This document shows, one piece after another, positions 44,064-53,834 of a stretch of 55,222 nt of DNA (positions within the stretch are counted from its first letter, which is position 1; every line of letters begins with the position of its first letter). The notes below the pieces were generated by a model, which was not told the origin of the DNA, did no database searches, and saw only the letters and a program-made list of their open reading frames with translations. The stretch comes from a virus. The translations under genes and the position numbers were made by a program. The DNA lies in IMG/VR virus record IMGVR_UViG_3300046740_000635, positions 1-55,222 of that record. One strand, 5' to 3'.

Positions 44064-44334
44064 GGCCCTTCCCCTTCATGACCTTGCCCACCTTGCCACC
44101 CTTGCGGAACCCCATGGGCGGGGAAGGCGGCACGGAGGGCGAGCCGGAGCCGCTGGGAGCCCCTGGCGCGCCCGCCACCGGACCGCCGCCGCCACCGGCC
44201 AGGCCCATGCCGGGCGGCGGCAGGGGCGCCGTGGGCAGCGCGCCCCTGGAAGGCGGTGGCCGGCCACCACCGCCACCGGATTTGGATGGAGAGGCCTTGG
44301 ACTTCATACCGGGCAACGTCGTGGGCCGTTTCAT
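44053..44334 (-). CDS. Pro/Gly-rich basic small protein, 93 aa
   Basis: Starts MKRPTTLPGMKSKASPSKSG and is almost wholly low complexity, with a C-terminal FRKGGKVGKVMKGKGRGR. The FRKGGKV patch is a recurrent element in small phage proteins between portal and capsid or tail genes. The start overlaps the small gene upstream (ATGA). Function unknown. Confidence 0.55.
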   Translation of the reverse strand: MKRPTTLPGMKSKASPSKSGGGGGRPPPSRGALPTAPLPPPGMGLAGGGGGPVAGAPGAPSGSGSPSVPPSPPMGFRKGGKVGKVMKGKGRGR

Positions 44335-44489
44335 TTGCGCTTCCCATACATCTGCCGCTGGCCGGCCTTGTCCTCGGCGCGGTCGCGTGGGGTTTTCTCA
44401 TAGGCTTTCATCGAGACGCCCATCTTCCTGGCGCCCGCCTTGTCCTTTTTGATGTCGGCGGGCGAGCCTTCGTAAACACGTTTCGCCAT
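44331..44489 (-). CDS. small virion-operon protein, 52 aa, nested in frame in the GIY-YIG frame
   Basis: Starts MAKRVYEGSPADIKKDKAGA and contains KKDKAGARKMGVSMKAYEKT followed by PRDRAEDKAGQRQM. It is a typical small phage protein with EGSxxDxKxDKAGAxKMGMSxKxYExTxxDxAED. A strong AAAGGAGTTGTC precedes the ATG at 44489. Because the upstream GIY-YIG frame continues into it without a stop, it may be made both alone and as the C-terminus of a fusion. Role unknown. Confidence 0.72.
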   Translation of the reverse strand: MAKRVYEGSPADIKKDKAGARKMGVSMKAYEKTPRDRAEDKAGQRQMYGKRK

Positions 44490-45281
44490 GACAACTCCTT
44501 TTGGTCGGAGGCGGTAACTACGGTCGTAATCTCGTTTCCAGGCTTTCAGGTCCGCGTCGGTCTTACGTCCCTGACGATCCCACCGCGCGACCAATGACGG
44601 CTTCACGATGCCTTTCTGCTTCTCCGACGACCGCTCGAACCCACAGGCACGGCATCCTTGCTGGCGCGACACCAGCATGTTCACCGTCACGCTATGCACC
44701 GCGTCGTGCTTCGCGCAATGGATCGTGATCTTGTCCTTGGTCTTGGTGCCAGCCAACGATTGAAGCATCCAATGCGGGCTGGCGGCGGCGATCATCGCCT
44801 CGATGTCTTCCTGGGTGCGGCGCTTCTTCGCGCGCACGGCGCTCATCATCTCACTCTGACGTTCGGCGGCGCCGGGTGCCTCCCAACGAACCTTGCGTCC
44901 GTAGGCCAGCCGTTCAGCGAGCAACTCTTTATTCGCTGGTTCAGAAGCCCACGCACGTTTACGTGTAACAGCTTCAGCTGAGAACACGGCACCTCTGTTA
45001 GACGTCACCACGTAACGAATATTATAACCTGGCTTCAGCGTATTTACCCAATGCTGCTCCCGCGCTTCCAGGAACTCGACCGGGCATTCTTCCAATATAC
45101 CAGTCTCGAACGCATCCCAGCCGCCCGAATGTTTGAACGCGGCGGCCAGGCGTGAGTTATGCGACTCACCCCGTTCCAGCTTCCACTGGTGTGTCTTCAG
45201 CCTGTGATCGATCCGTGTCGCGATGCCGACATACATCTTTCCGCTCTCCCGGTGGCGGATGAAATATACCCCTGATGCCAT
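44331..45281 (-). CDS. GIY-YIG homing endonuclease, in-frame fusion with downstream small gene, 316 aa
   Basis: The N-terminal GIY-YIG nuclease has GVYFIRHRESGKMYVGIATR with Arg and His following (IDHRLKTHQWKL), residues about 3-30. LEAREQHWVNTLKPGYNIRY follows. Residues about 115-260 are a basic DNA-binding part with a zinc-like pair CRAC and KAWKRDYDRSYRLRP. The frame then reads into the 52-aa gene (start at residue 265). The region is more AT-rich than its neighbours. AGGAGTGAGG precedes the ATG and a good promoter lies upstream. It looks like a mobile intervening gene between the capsid gene and the tail genes. Confidence 0.85.
   Translation of the reverse strand: MASGVYFIRHRESGKMYVGIATRIDHRLKTHQWKLERGESHNSRLAAAFKHSGGWDAFETGILEECPVEFLEAREQHWVNTLKPGYNIRYVVTSNRGAVFSAEAVTRKRAWASEPANKELLAERLAYGRKVRWEAPGAAERQSEMMSAVRAKKRRTQEDIEAMIAAASPHWMLQSLAGTKTKDKITIHCAKHDAVHSVTVNMLVSRQQGCRACGFERSSEKQKGIVKPSLVARWDRQGRKTDADLKAWKRDYDRSYRLRPKGVVMAKRVYEGSPADIKKDKAGARKMGVSMKAYEKTPRDRAEDKAGQRQMYGKRK
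44515..44529. repeat. dispersed palindrome copy (TAACTACGGTCGTAA)
   Basis: A copy just upstream of the ribosome-binding site of the 52-aa gene, inside the GIY-YIG frame. It is placed with respect to a start codon much as the two copies on the left arm are (about 25 bp before the ATG). Confidence 0.55.
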
Positions 45282-50743: not shown

Positions 50744-50758
50744 ATCTGGCAACCAGAT
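50744..50758. promoter_or_regulatory. small inverted repeat ATCTGGCAACCAGAT, possible operator
   Basis: A perfect 6-3-6 inverted repeat at or just after the predicted transcription start of the packaging operon. It ends inside the ATG at 50757, so it could act as an operator or as a structure controlling translation. Confidence 0.45.
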
Positions 50759-50771
50759 GCGATGGAACCCA

Positions 50772-51476
50772 ATGCCAAATCCTTTCAGCGCCTGGGTCAT
50801 ACGGGAAAAAGACGAGACCGCGACTGAGTTTTCCACGCCAGTGGAGGTGGTTGTCCCCGCGCCCCCGCCCGCTTTCGATATCCTCGATGACCTGGAAGAT
50901 GAAGAAGAGGCTTCGGTCAACGCGGTCATAGACGCGACGCCCATCCTGGAGACGGGCGATGACACCCCCGACCTGTCCCCCCAGCTGTTATGGGCGTTCT
51001 GCGTCGATGTCGCGCAAAACGTGCAGAGCTTTTCGCAGATCGCCATCCGTTACGGTTTCACCGACGTATCGCGGCTGCGCGATTTCCTGCGCGACCAGCC
51101 CATGGTGCGCCGGCGCGCCAAGGAGATGCGCGCGGTGTGGGAGAGCGACGACAACGTCGACGACCGTATCAAGAAACTATCCGGCCACGCGGTGCTCGCC
51201 GCCCTCCCGGAGACCGCGAAGATCATGCTCGACCCCAGGACACCCAACGAAACCCGGCTCAACGCCATGCAGAAGCACGCCACCATCGCCGGGGTCTACA
51301 ACCCGCCCGGCGCGCGCGGCGGCGCGGTGGTGGCCGGCGCCGGGCCCGGCGTGGGACGCTTCAGCGTGAACATCGTGTTCCAGAACGCCGGCAAAACGGA
51401 AACCATCACCACCATCGAACACGCGCCCGACAGCCACGTCGAACACCCGGACAACCAGGAGATACTCACGTCATGA
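50772..51476 (+). CDS. putative terminase small subunit, 234 aa
   Basis: A DNA-binding protein that probably starts DNA packaging. The N-terminus is acidic and Pro-rich (MPNPFSAWVIREKDETATEF). The middle shows a helix-turn-helix with SFSQIAIRYGFTDVSRLRDF, DQPMVRRRAKEMRAVWES, and HAVLAALPETAKIMLDPRTP. This resembles small terminase subunits with an N-terminal recognition domain followed by oligomerising helices. ATG at 50772 gives a natural N-terminus; the ATG at 50757 would add five residues. Neither has a clear ribosome-binding site. It precedes the large terminase by four small genes. Confidence 0.72.
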   Translation: MPNPFSAWVIREKDETATEFSTPVEVVVPAPPPAFDILDDLEDEEEASVNAVIDATPILETGDDTPDLSPQLLWAFCVDVAQNVQSFSQIAIRYGFTDVSRLRDFLRDQPMVRRRAKEMRAVWESDDNVDDRIKKLSGHAVLAALPETAKIMLDPRTPNETRLNAMQKHATIAGVYNPPGARGGAVVAGAGPGVGRFSVNIVFQNAGKTETITTIEHAPDSHVEHPDNQEILTS

Positions 51477-51697
51477 GCACCTTGCACGACACCACGTTCG
51501 GTTACCTAAAACCAACCGACGCTCAGATGGAAACCATGGACACCACGCGCGCGCTGTTCAAGGTGTTCGTGGCCAACATCGACGACCTGCTGCCCGCCGG
51601 TCCTGATAAAACGTTCGTGCTGCGGCAACTACGCGACTGCGCGATGTGGGCGAACGTCGCGATCACGCGGAACCCCGATGGGAGTCCACGATCATGA
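51473..51697 (+). CDS. Acb2/Tad1-like hairpin-domain protein, 74 aa
   Basis: A two-helix protein: TDAQMETMDTTRALFKVFVA, LLPAGPDKTFVLRQLRDCAM and WANVAITRNPDGSPR. The pattern (R...F...I..LLP.G..KxxxLxxLxxxxMWANxAIxR) matches the family named Acb2/Tad1 hairpin domain, to my knowledge. Members of this group bind cyclic nucleotides and can block CBASS or Thoeris signalling. The ATG overlaps the upstream stop, and the stop overlaps the Tad2 start (ATGA). The sponge role is inferred from the family and from the neighbour. Confidence 0.6.
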   Translation: MSTLHDTTFGYLKPTDAQMETMDTTRALFKVFVANIDDLLPAGPDKTFVLRQLRDCAMWANVAITRNPDGSPRS

Positions 51698-51921
51698 ACA
51701 ACACCGATATCGGTTGGGCCATCGACCAGCTACGCGCCGGAGACCGCGTGCGCCGCGCCGGATGGAACGACAAAGGCATGTATCTGACATTACAGGTTCC
51801 CGACGCGCACTCGAAGATGACGCTGCCTTACGTTTATATCAGCACCGCCCGGGGAGCCCTGGTACCCTGGGTGTGCTCACAGGCGGACCTGCTGGACGAC
51901 GACTGGGAACTGGTGGAGTGA
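51694..51921 (+). CDS. tad2: Tad2 (DUF2829) anti-Thoeris protein, 75 aa
   Basis: A match to the DUF2829/Tad2 family by pattern: IGWAIDQLRAGDRVRRAGWN, DKGMYLTLQ, PYVYISTARGALVPWVCSQA, DLLDDDWELVE. The family hallmark is an RxGWNGKGM block near the N-terminus, then VPWxxSQxDLLAxDW at the end. Tad2 proteins from phages bind and sequester cyclic-nucleotide immune signals (such as gcADPR) made by Thoeris systems. The length (75 aa) is normal for the compact members. The start overlaps the Acb2-like stop. Confidence 0.88.
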   Translation: MNNTDIGWAIDQLRAGDRVRRAGWNDKGMYLTLQVPDAHSKMTLPYVYISTARGALVPWVCSQADLLDDDWELVE

Positions 51922-51925
51922 GATC

Positions 51926-52099
51926 ATGAGCCCGCTTGGAATAATACTCGTCGTGATCCTGATCATCGTATTGTTCGGCGGTGGTTACGGTTACCGAATG
52001 GGTTCCTGGGCCGCCTACCCACAATACGGTTACGGGTTCGGCATCGTCGGCCTGCTCATCGTGGTGTTGCTGATATTGTTGTTGCTGGGGAGGATATGA
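51926..52099 (+). CDS. DUF3309-like small membrane protein, 57 aa
   Basis: A gene beginning MSPLGIILVVILIIVLFGGG. Two hydrophobic helices (about residues 3-20 and 36-56) flank a Gly/Tyr/Trp loop (GYRMGSWAAYPQYGYGFG), as in the DUF3309 family (LGxxLLIILILLLLGxxPxWxYSxxWGYxPSGxxxLLLIVLILLLLG). The stop overlaps the next start (ATGA). Could serve as holin or membrane-modifying peptide; unassigned. Confidence 0.75.
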   Translation: MSPLGIILVVILIIVLFGGGYGYRMGSWAAYPQYGYGFGIVGLLIVVLLILLLLGRI

Positions 52100-52296
52100 T
52101 GGACGAGGGTATCCATGATCTCACGCGCGTGGAGGAGATCCTCCACGACGCCGAGAACTCGGGACGCATGTCGAACTGGGAACAGAATTTCGTCGCCGAC
52201 ATGCTGGCGAAGATCGCGCAGTATGGGCGGGACACCTACATCTCGGACAGGCAGCTGACGGTCATCGACCACCTGGAAGATAAATTATACTCATGA
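52096..52296 (+). CDS. small phage protein, 66 aa
   Basis: Starts MMDEGIHDLTRVEEILHDAE; the rest reads MSNWEQNFVADMLAKIAQYG and DRQLTVIDHLEDKL. The LSxWExxFVxDMxxKxxxYGxxxxxSDxQxxxIxxIxxKL pattern recurs in small phage proteins of unknown role. GGGGAGGAT precedes the ATG and the stop overlaps the terminase start. Confidence 0.7.
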   Translation: MMDEGIHDLTRVEEILHDAENSGRMSNWEQNFVADMLAKIAQYGRDTYISDRQLTVIDHLEDKLYS

Positions 52297-53834
52297 CCAG
52301 CGCCAACATCGGCGTGCCCAGGCCCTTCATGCCGGGCGGGCGCGGCATGGGGTCCACTGGTTATCTCCCCCACGCCGCCATCGACCCGTTCATCATCCCG
52401 ACCAGCCCGGCGCCGGGGGAGGACCCGACCCAGCTGGCCTACGTCCCCCCACCCACCGTCGAGCGCTTCATGCTGGACGGCCACCTGGTAAGGTTCATCG
52501 TCGGCCCCGTCGGAAGCGGCAAGTCCATGGGCTGCATCATGGAGCTGCTCAGGCGGGCGCGCCAGCAGGTGGCCGACGCCAACGGACGGCGTAGCACGCG
52601 CTTCGCCCTGATACGTAATACAATGCAACAATTACGCACGACCGTGCTCAGCGACGTCATGCAGTATCTCAATCCCATGCTCCGGTATTTCGTCACCGAC
52701 AGCACGATCCAGATACGCGCCGATCTCGAAGACGGCACCGCCGTGCATTCCGACTGGGTGATGATCCCGCTCGACACCAAGGAGGACGTGCGCAGGCTGT
52801 TATCGATGCAGCTGACCGGCGCCTGGATCAACGAGGTGCGCGAGGTGCCCTACGAGATCGTCTCCGCGCTGCTCGAACGCCTGGGACGGTTTCCGAGCAA
52901 GCTCAACGGCGGGCCGACCTGGCACGGGCTGATCGCCGACTCGAACCCATGGGACGTGGACAGCCCGTACCACGAGGCGCTGGTACTCAATCCGGATCCG
53001 AAATGGAAGCTGTTCCACCAGCCTTCGGGCGTCTCGCCGGAAGCGGAGAACCTGGAGAACCTGCCGGACGGTTATTACGAAAACGCGATGTCTGGCTCGA
53101 CCGAGGAACGCATAGCCACGCAGATACGTTCCGAATGGGGAACATCGAACGCGGGCCAGGCGGTGTTCCGCCGGTCGTTCGACGCCAACACCCACGTGGT
53201 GGACATGGAGACAGTGGTCAACCCGATGCGGCCCCTGCTGATCGCGATGGATTTCGGCCGCACCCCCTGCGCGCTCATCGGCCAGGTCGACACGCACGGG
53301 CGCTATCTCATCTTCGAGGAGATCGTGACCGACGACATGGGGCTGCACCAGATGCTGGCCGAACGGCTCAGGCCGAGGCTGATGAGCGAGCCCTACGCCG
53401 GCAAGCGAGCCTACGTGGTGGCCGACCCGGCCGGCGCGCAACGCTCGCAATACAGCGAGGAGACCGCGTTCGACGTGCTCAAAAGCCATGGGTTCCTGGC
53501 ATACCCGGGAGCGACCAACGACATCCCACCCAGACTGCTCGCGGTGGAGAAGTTGTTACGCCAGCAGATCATGGGCAAGCCCGGCTTGCAGATATCAAGA
53601 CTTGGCTGCCCGGTGCTGATCCGCGCGATGGCCTCGCAATATCATTACAGGAGGCGGCGCGATGGGCACCTCGACGAGAAGCCGGAGAAGAACAACCATC
53701 CCTACTCGGACGTCGCCGACGCGCTGCAGTACGGCTGCCTGTCGGTGCAGGCGGACCTGACCGGGCGCGCCATGCGGTCGATGATGCCGAGAGTGGTGCA
53801 AACGAAACGGATCTCCAGTGGAGGATGGACATGA
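52293..53834 (+). CDS. terminase large subunit, 513 aa
   Basis: The DNA-packaging motor: N-terminal ATPase with Walker A FIVGPVGSGKSMG (Lys about 77) and Walker B LTGAWINEVREV; C-terminal nuclease with the metal-binding Asp of LLIAMDFGRTP (about 320), VVADPAGAQRSQY (about 378) and the YSDVADALQY block (Asp about 473, 476). Length 513 is typical. The start overlaps the upstream stop (ATGA) and the stop overlaps the 70-aa gene. Confidence 0.92.
   Translation: MTSANIGVPRPFMPGGRGMGSTGYLPHAAIDPFIIPTSPAPGEDPTQLAYVPPPTVERFMLDGHLVRFIVGPVGSGKSMGCIMELLRRARQQVADANGRRSTRFALIRNTMQQLRTTVLSDVMQYLNPMLRYFVTDSTIQIRADLEDGTAVHSDWVMIPLDTKEDVRRLLSMQLTGAWINEVREVPYEIVSALLERLGRFPSKLNGGPTWHGLIADSNPWDVDSPYHEALVLNPDPKWKLFHQPSGVSPEAENLENLPDGYYENAMSGSTEERIATQIRSEWGTSNAGQAVFRRSFDANTHVVDMETVVNPMRPLLIAMDFGRTPCALIGQVDTHGRYLIFEEIVTDDMGLHQMLAERLRPRLMSEPYAGKRAYVVADPAGAQRSQYSEETAFDVLKSHGFLAYPGATNDIPPRLLAVEKLLRQQIMGKPGLQISRLGCPVLIRAMASQYHYRRRRDGHLDEKPEKNNHPYSDVADALQYGCLSVQADLTGRAMRSMMPRVVQTKRISSGGWT

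Follow-up and report, generated by a model that had tools for sequence, protein, structure and literature searches.

The sequence analysed here, termed the window, is the whole 55,222-nucleotide stretch of IMG/VR record IMGVR_UViG_3300046740_000635. It derives from a soil phage in which two small genes are squeezed between the DNA-packaging genes (Table 1). The first encodes a 74-residue protein of the Acb2/Tad1-hairpin family and the second a 75-residue Tad2 (DUF2829) protein, and the two are joined by a shared ATGA at 51694, as a first-pass annotation made from the sequence had described. The DUF3309-like membrane peptide that was said to accompany the pair is also present, beginning 4 nt after tad2, and a further small ORF separates it from the large terminase gene (terL). 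The same annotation placed the pair between the terminase genes. This holds for terL, which is recognised by its PHROG match, while the small terminase (terS) is a candidate assigned by position, since its sole PHROG match is of unknown function. Orthologues of this candidate terS are found at the same place in the related records L003, L006, L007 and L051.

Table 1. Genes of the terS–terL string in window coordinates.
Feature	Position	Strand	Length (aa)	Evidence and remarks
Candidate small terminase (terS)	50757..51476	+	239	phrog_36773 only, E 2.7e-5; first in the probably coupled string, precedes cassette and terL
Acb2/Tad1-hairpin protein	51473..51697	+	74	PF24729, profile, AlphaFold fold match
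Tad2 (DUF2829) protein	51694..51921	+	75	PF11195, profile, Foldseek
DUF3309 small membrane peptide	51926..52099	+	57	PF11752, 25.5 bits (cut-off 22.3)
66-aa ORF	52096..52296	+	66	phrog_7521 (unknown function), E 3.5e-6; absent from L003
Large terminase (terL)	52293..53834	+	513	phrog_2 terminase large subunit, E 3e-23

ATGA overlaps occur at four of the five junctions in this string, and translation is therefore probably coupled from terS through terL. The SU10-type portal gene and other head genes are encoded on the opposite strand. It had been proposed that the pair lies under a packaging promoter, a claim to which the promoter scan lent no support: no sigma-70-like promoter was found in the 108-bp divergent gap upstream of terS, and the two matches in the region, compared to 1.1 expected, both fall outside this gap. 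No tRNA was found in the window, and its DNA similarity to sequenced phages is minimal. A GIY-YIG homing-type endonuclease is encoded at 44334-45281, adjoining the major capsid gene.

Both ORFs appear to be real genes rather than products of chance, because relatives encode both proteins and because the hairpin gene has a dN/dS of about 0.18 relative to L003 and tad2 one of about 0.5, the latter based on few changes. Divergence within the neighbourhood is greatest in the hairpin gene, which in this comparison has 88% nucleotide identity to its counterpart (L003 5001-5225) compared to 94–95% for terS, tad2 and terL. The dS of the hairpin gene is 0.38, while that of tad2 is 0.08, and this raised value points to allele exchange more than to positive selection.

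The 75-residue protein clearly belongs to the Tad2 family. It scores 79.3 bits against the PF11195 Tad2-like model (cut-off 25), and a profile built from 22 relatives (A1) matches the Tad2 chains of the PDB with E values of 1e-19 to 1e-14. Its AlphaFold model (pLDDT 88) matches SPO1 Tad2 in Foldseek with E 4.9e-7 and TM 0.85, and the 24 best chains, with E<1e-4, are all of the Tad2 family, with no other family near. In addition, the motifs GWN and W..SQ.D are invariant among the relatives and common to the solved chains; family model, fold and motifs are all shared with SPO1 Gp34.65, SptTad2, HgmTad2 and ModTad2.

Compared to these known proteins, the Tad2 of the window is the shortest form. 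The spacing from GWN to the PW motif is 32 residues in most of the close-Tad2 clade, and between two aligned blocks the protein is some 21–30 residues shorter than SptTad2 and HgmTad2. One study reports that cyclic dinucleotides are bound by a long loop insertion in Tad2 (PMC12043709). The window protein seems, as judged from its sequence, to be a short form that lacks this insertion, and ADP-ribose (ADPR)-type ligands would be predicted for it on this basis. In a Tad2 subgroup that includes L118, L124 and further distant loci, seven inserted residues (EYP.GH.AYP.GSR) precede the PW motif, and a hairpin gene hardly ever accompanies Tad2s with this spacing.

The 74-residue protein scores 35.4 bits against PF24729, Acb2_Tad1_hairpin, above the curated cut-off of 27. 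A profile built from 39 relatives (A2) finds its best PDB match in Acb2 homolog 43 (9ptq, E 6e-7), with weaker matches to the Acb2 proteins of T4 and a Pseudomonas phage; the single sequence, searched against the PDB, returned only chance matches and no Acb2 chain. AlphaFold models the protein with a pLDDT of 94 as a two-helix hairpin (helices 16-39 and 44-65), whose best fold match is also 9ptq (Z 7.6, rmsd 1.6, 63 of 74 residues aligned). Acb2 structures occupy the top Z ranks, at 7.6, 6.6 and 6.1; the leading entries are 9ptq, 7uq2 and 8h2x, with T4 and Pseudomonas-phage Acb2 after 9ptq. Structure prediction had been put forward as a check on the first-pass annotation, and the two models rank Acb2 and Tad2 structures first, respectively. 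However, helical hairpins are common, so that a Z of 7.6 alone is not decisive; unrelated helical bundles reach Z 5.9 against this model, and its Foldseek E values were not significant. The model thus supports an Acb2 monomer fold with moderate confidence.

The window protein shares with the anti-CBASS 2 proteins of T4 (Vs.4) and the Pseudomonas phage (PDB 7uq2, 8h2j) its hairpin family and a position among the top structural matches, but these are 89–93 residues long and less than 20% identical to it. The T4 protein is also a trigger of Panoptes. Homolog 43 is of similar length (76 residues) and is 16–17% identical. In the profile alignment, with the numbering printed for each chain, the ligand-pocket residues Y11 and K26 of Pseudomonas-phage Acb2 correspond to Y11 and R26 in the window protein; the pocket tyrosine of T4 Acb2 is Y8. 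Among close relatives of the window protein, Y11 is more than 90% conserved and nearly all have R at position 26. The Y8A mutation in T4 Acb2 is reported to abolish cyclic-dinucleotide binding (PMC12657218). The motif GRE..S...TK.EE, which is usual among hairpin relatives, is replaced by GPDKT...RQLRD. No plasmid-encoded match to the protein was found.

Tad1 was also considered as the identity of this protein and was rejected. The C-terminal helical hairpin of Tad1 (7uav, 8kbc) corresponds to residues 24-70 of the window model (Z 4.8), but in Tad1 an N-terminal antiparallel β-sheet domain precedes the hairpin (PMC12043709), and the window model has two helices only.

The first-pass annotation had singled out the pairing within the packaging operon as unusual. 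The pairing is not confined to this phage and recurs in many viruses. The closest Tad2 relatives in IMG/VR were collected with the window's own lineage excluded, and the 47 whole records, mostly fragments from soil and other metagenomes, were searched for PF24729. A hairpin above the cut-off is present in 23 of them. Seventeen of these have it on the same strand as Tad2 and no more than 131 bp away, compared to 0.43 predicted by random placement under an assumption of independent records that holds only roughly. The remaining 24 records, many of which are short fragments, show no hairpin gene. Clustering of the adjacent hairpins, with the window's lineage and the isolated Mycobacterium phage MalagasyRose included, yields 17 groups at 70% identity and six at 40%, and the pairs occur in both gene orders. 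Any flanking protein is shared by just 23 of 190 pairs of paired loci, and the carriers are mostly unrelated soil viruses, although contig counts are not equivalent to evolutionary events.

The pairing does not extend evenly across either family. Among the next 30, more distant Tad2 relatives, one hairpin and no adjacent pair were found, and among the close Acb2 relatives tested, Tad2 is present in three only, all from the window's own lineage. Neither gene therefore needs the other, given also the close-Tad2 records in which no hairpin was seen. In bacterial genomes, one hairpin near Tad2 (L140) was found among 40 loci, which suggests that the pairing is mainly a property of a viral clade. 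Of five Tad2-carrying phages (XC38, PaBG, Ahp1, N4 and CBW1004C-Prop1), none has a hairpin above the cut-off. Curiosium, which comes nearest in the position of its genes, carries Tad2 close to the terminase, and no hairpin was found in it. MalagasyRose carries Tad2 (gp4) followed by a hairpin gene (gp5) directly upstream of terS and terL; its two genes are adjacent as in the window, but the order is reversed, the hairpin is part of a 195-residue protein, and both products are annotated as hypothetical. In the Aeromonas phage Ahp1_CNU-2021 (L181 1968-3896), a Tad2-family gene lies immediately before a nicotinamide phosphoribosyltransferase gene, and this combination of a sponge with an NAD-salvage enzyme is another possible counter-defence pairing. 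No description of the Tad2–hairpin pairing was found in the literature searched; a sponge-diversity preprint (doi 10.1101/2025.08.24.671296, cited in PMC13232231) was outside this search, and priority is unproven.

These counts already disfavour the view that the two are chance neighbours, common small phage genes with no functional link. Both families are indeed widespread among phages, variable sites collect small genes, and DUF3309 and HNH-like genes likewise come and go in the terS–terL interval. However, the excess of adjacent same-strand pairs over expectation, even among records that are not fully independent, the six divergent hairpin groups in both orders, and the absence of adjacent pairs from the distant Tad2 set make coincidence very improbable.

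The neighbourhoods of relatives reveal how the pair varies at a given site. L067 and L094 have a flanking TerL-type protein that is about 80% identical and also share downstream genes. At this same site, L094 has Tad2 followed by one hairpin type and L067 has another hairpin type followed by Tad2. In L077 and L100, whose major capsid proteins are 57–58% identical to that of the window, Tad2 and a different hairpin lie near scaffold-like and capsid genes. The pair is near terL also in L079, L092 and L094 and far from it in L072, L081 and L082; the pair is thus often, but not always, found among head or packaging genes.

Within the window's own lineage, L003 has the hairpin–Tad2 pair without DUF3309, and L006, L007 and L051 retain terS and the hairpin gene, which is followed directly by DUF3309, with Tad2 absent. 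DUF3309 peptides are likewise found close downstream of hairpin genes in L027, L094, L011 and L014, in addition to L006, L007 and L051, also where Tad2 is absent. Between DUF3309 and terL, ORFs that look HNH-type, identified by eye, are present in L006 (4181-4699) and L007 (5500-6270), which points to the terS–terL interval as a variable site.

It could be argued that the 74-residue protein uses its hairpin fold in a phage role other than that of a sponge, for example as an accessory packaging factor that co-evolves with the terminase, and that only Tad2 acts in counter-defence. The position of its gene between terS and terL and its retention in the three relatives lacking Tad2 would fit such a role, as would the departure of the GPDKT motif from other hairpin relatives, and the helical hairpin fold says little by itself about function. 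On the other hand, many relatives of the protein have no adjoining terminase in the loci examined, and unrelated hairpin subfamilies occupy the same place beside Tad2. A role other than that of a sponge is considered quite unlikely.

According to the first-pass annotation, one operon would counter both CBASS-type and Thoeris-type signals. The presence of two sponge-family proteins in one operon is well supported, but the division of labour, in which Acb2 would act on CBASS and Tad2 on Thoeris, is plausible rather than established, because the solved hairpin relative closest in both profile and fold, Acb2 homolog 43, is complexed with 3′cADPR, a Thoeris-type signal, and sequence by itself reveals no ligand. 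The hairpin protein may accordingly be predicted to bind cyclic di- or trinucleotides or ADPR-type signals.

Both sponges may instead act on the same pathway, the Acb2-like protein binding one Thoeris-type ADPR signal and Tad2 another, in a two-layer anti-Thoeris system with no anti-CBASS activity. The 3′cADPR complex of homolog 43 speaks for this arrangement, and Tad2 homologues have been solved with 1″-3′ gcADPR, 1″-2′ gcADPR and His-ADPR. However, Y11 and the basic residue at 26 match Pseudomonas-phage Acb2, which was solved with cGAMP, and one solved complex does not give the specificity of a subfamily. A purely anti-Thoeris pair is considered somewhat unlikely.

The favoured explanation, to which a probability of roughly 0.6 is assigned, is that the terS–terL interval has received a modular two-sponge counter-defence cassette by insertion. 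The Acb2-like protein would probably oligomerise and hold nucleotides in pockets between its protomers, and a tetramer is the probable form of the Tad2 protein. Both would bind nucleotide second messengers of host abortive-infection systems and, without degrading them, keep the signal below the effector threshold. The short Tad2 likely targets Thoeris-type signals (gcADPR, perhaps His-ADPR), and its hairpin partner would take up either the cyclic di- or trinucleotides of CBASS or another ADPR signal. Through coupling to the terminase genes, the sponges may be made alongside the packaging proteins, when capsid-sensing defences fire. Such timing would be apt because ThsB1 of Thoeris reportedly detects the major head protein (PMC12043709).

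The presence of several nucleotide-signal antagonists in one phage has been described for T4, which has Acb1 and Acb2, and for SPO1, which has Tad2 and Acb4 (PMC11722364). Unlike in these phages, the two sponge families here are encoded by neighbouring, overlapping genes, and the arrangement is recurrent. More tentatively, soil phages may carry a recurrent two-sponge module in which a short Tad2 lineage without the cyclic-dinucleotide insertion is repeatedly combined with interchangeable Acb2/Tad1-hairpin partners, often among terminase or head genes. They would in this way assemble their coverage of CBASS-type and Thoeris-type signals module by module and produce it together with the proteins that trigger these defences.

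Single sponges are well studied, and a recurrent pairing of two neighbouring families would suggest that phages use modules to build up the range of signals they cover. A binding screen could start from the hairpin partners, and should their ligands prove complementary to those of a constant Tad2, the pairing itself would predict specificity. Finally, placement with head and packaging genes suggests a connection to capsid-sensing defences that can be tested.
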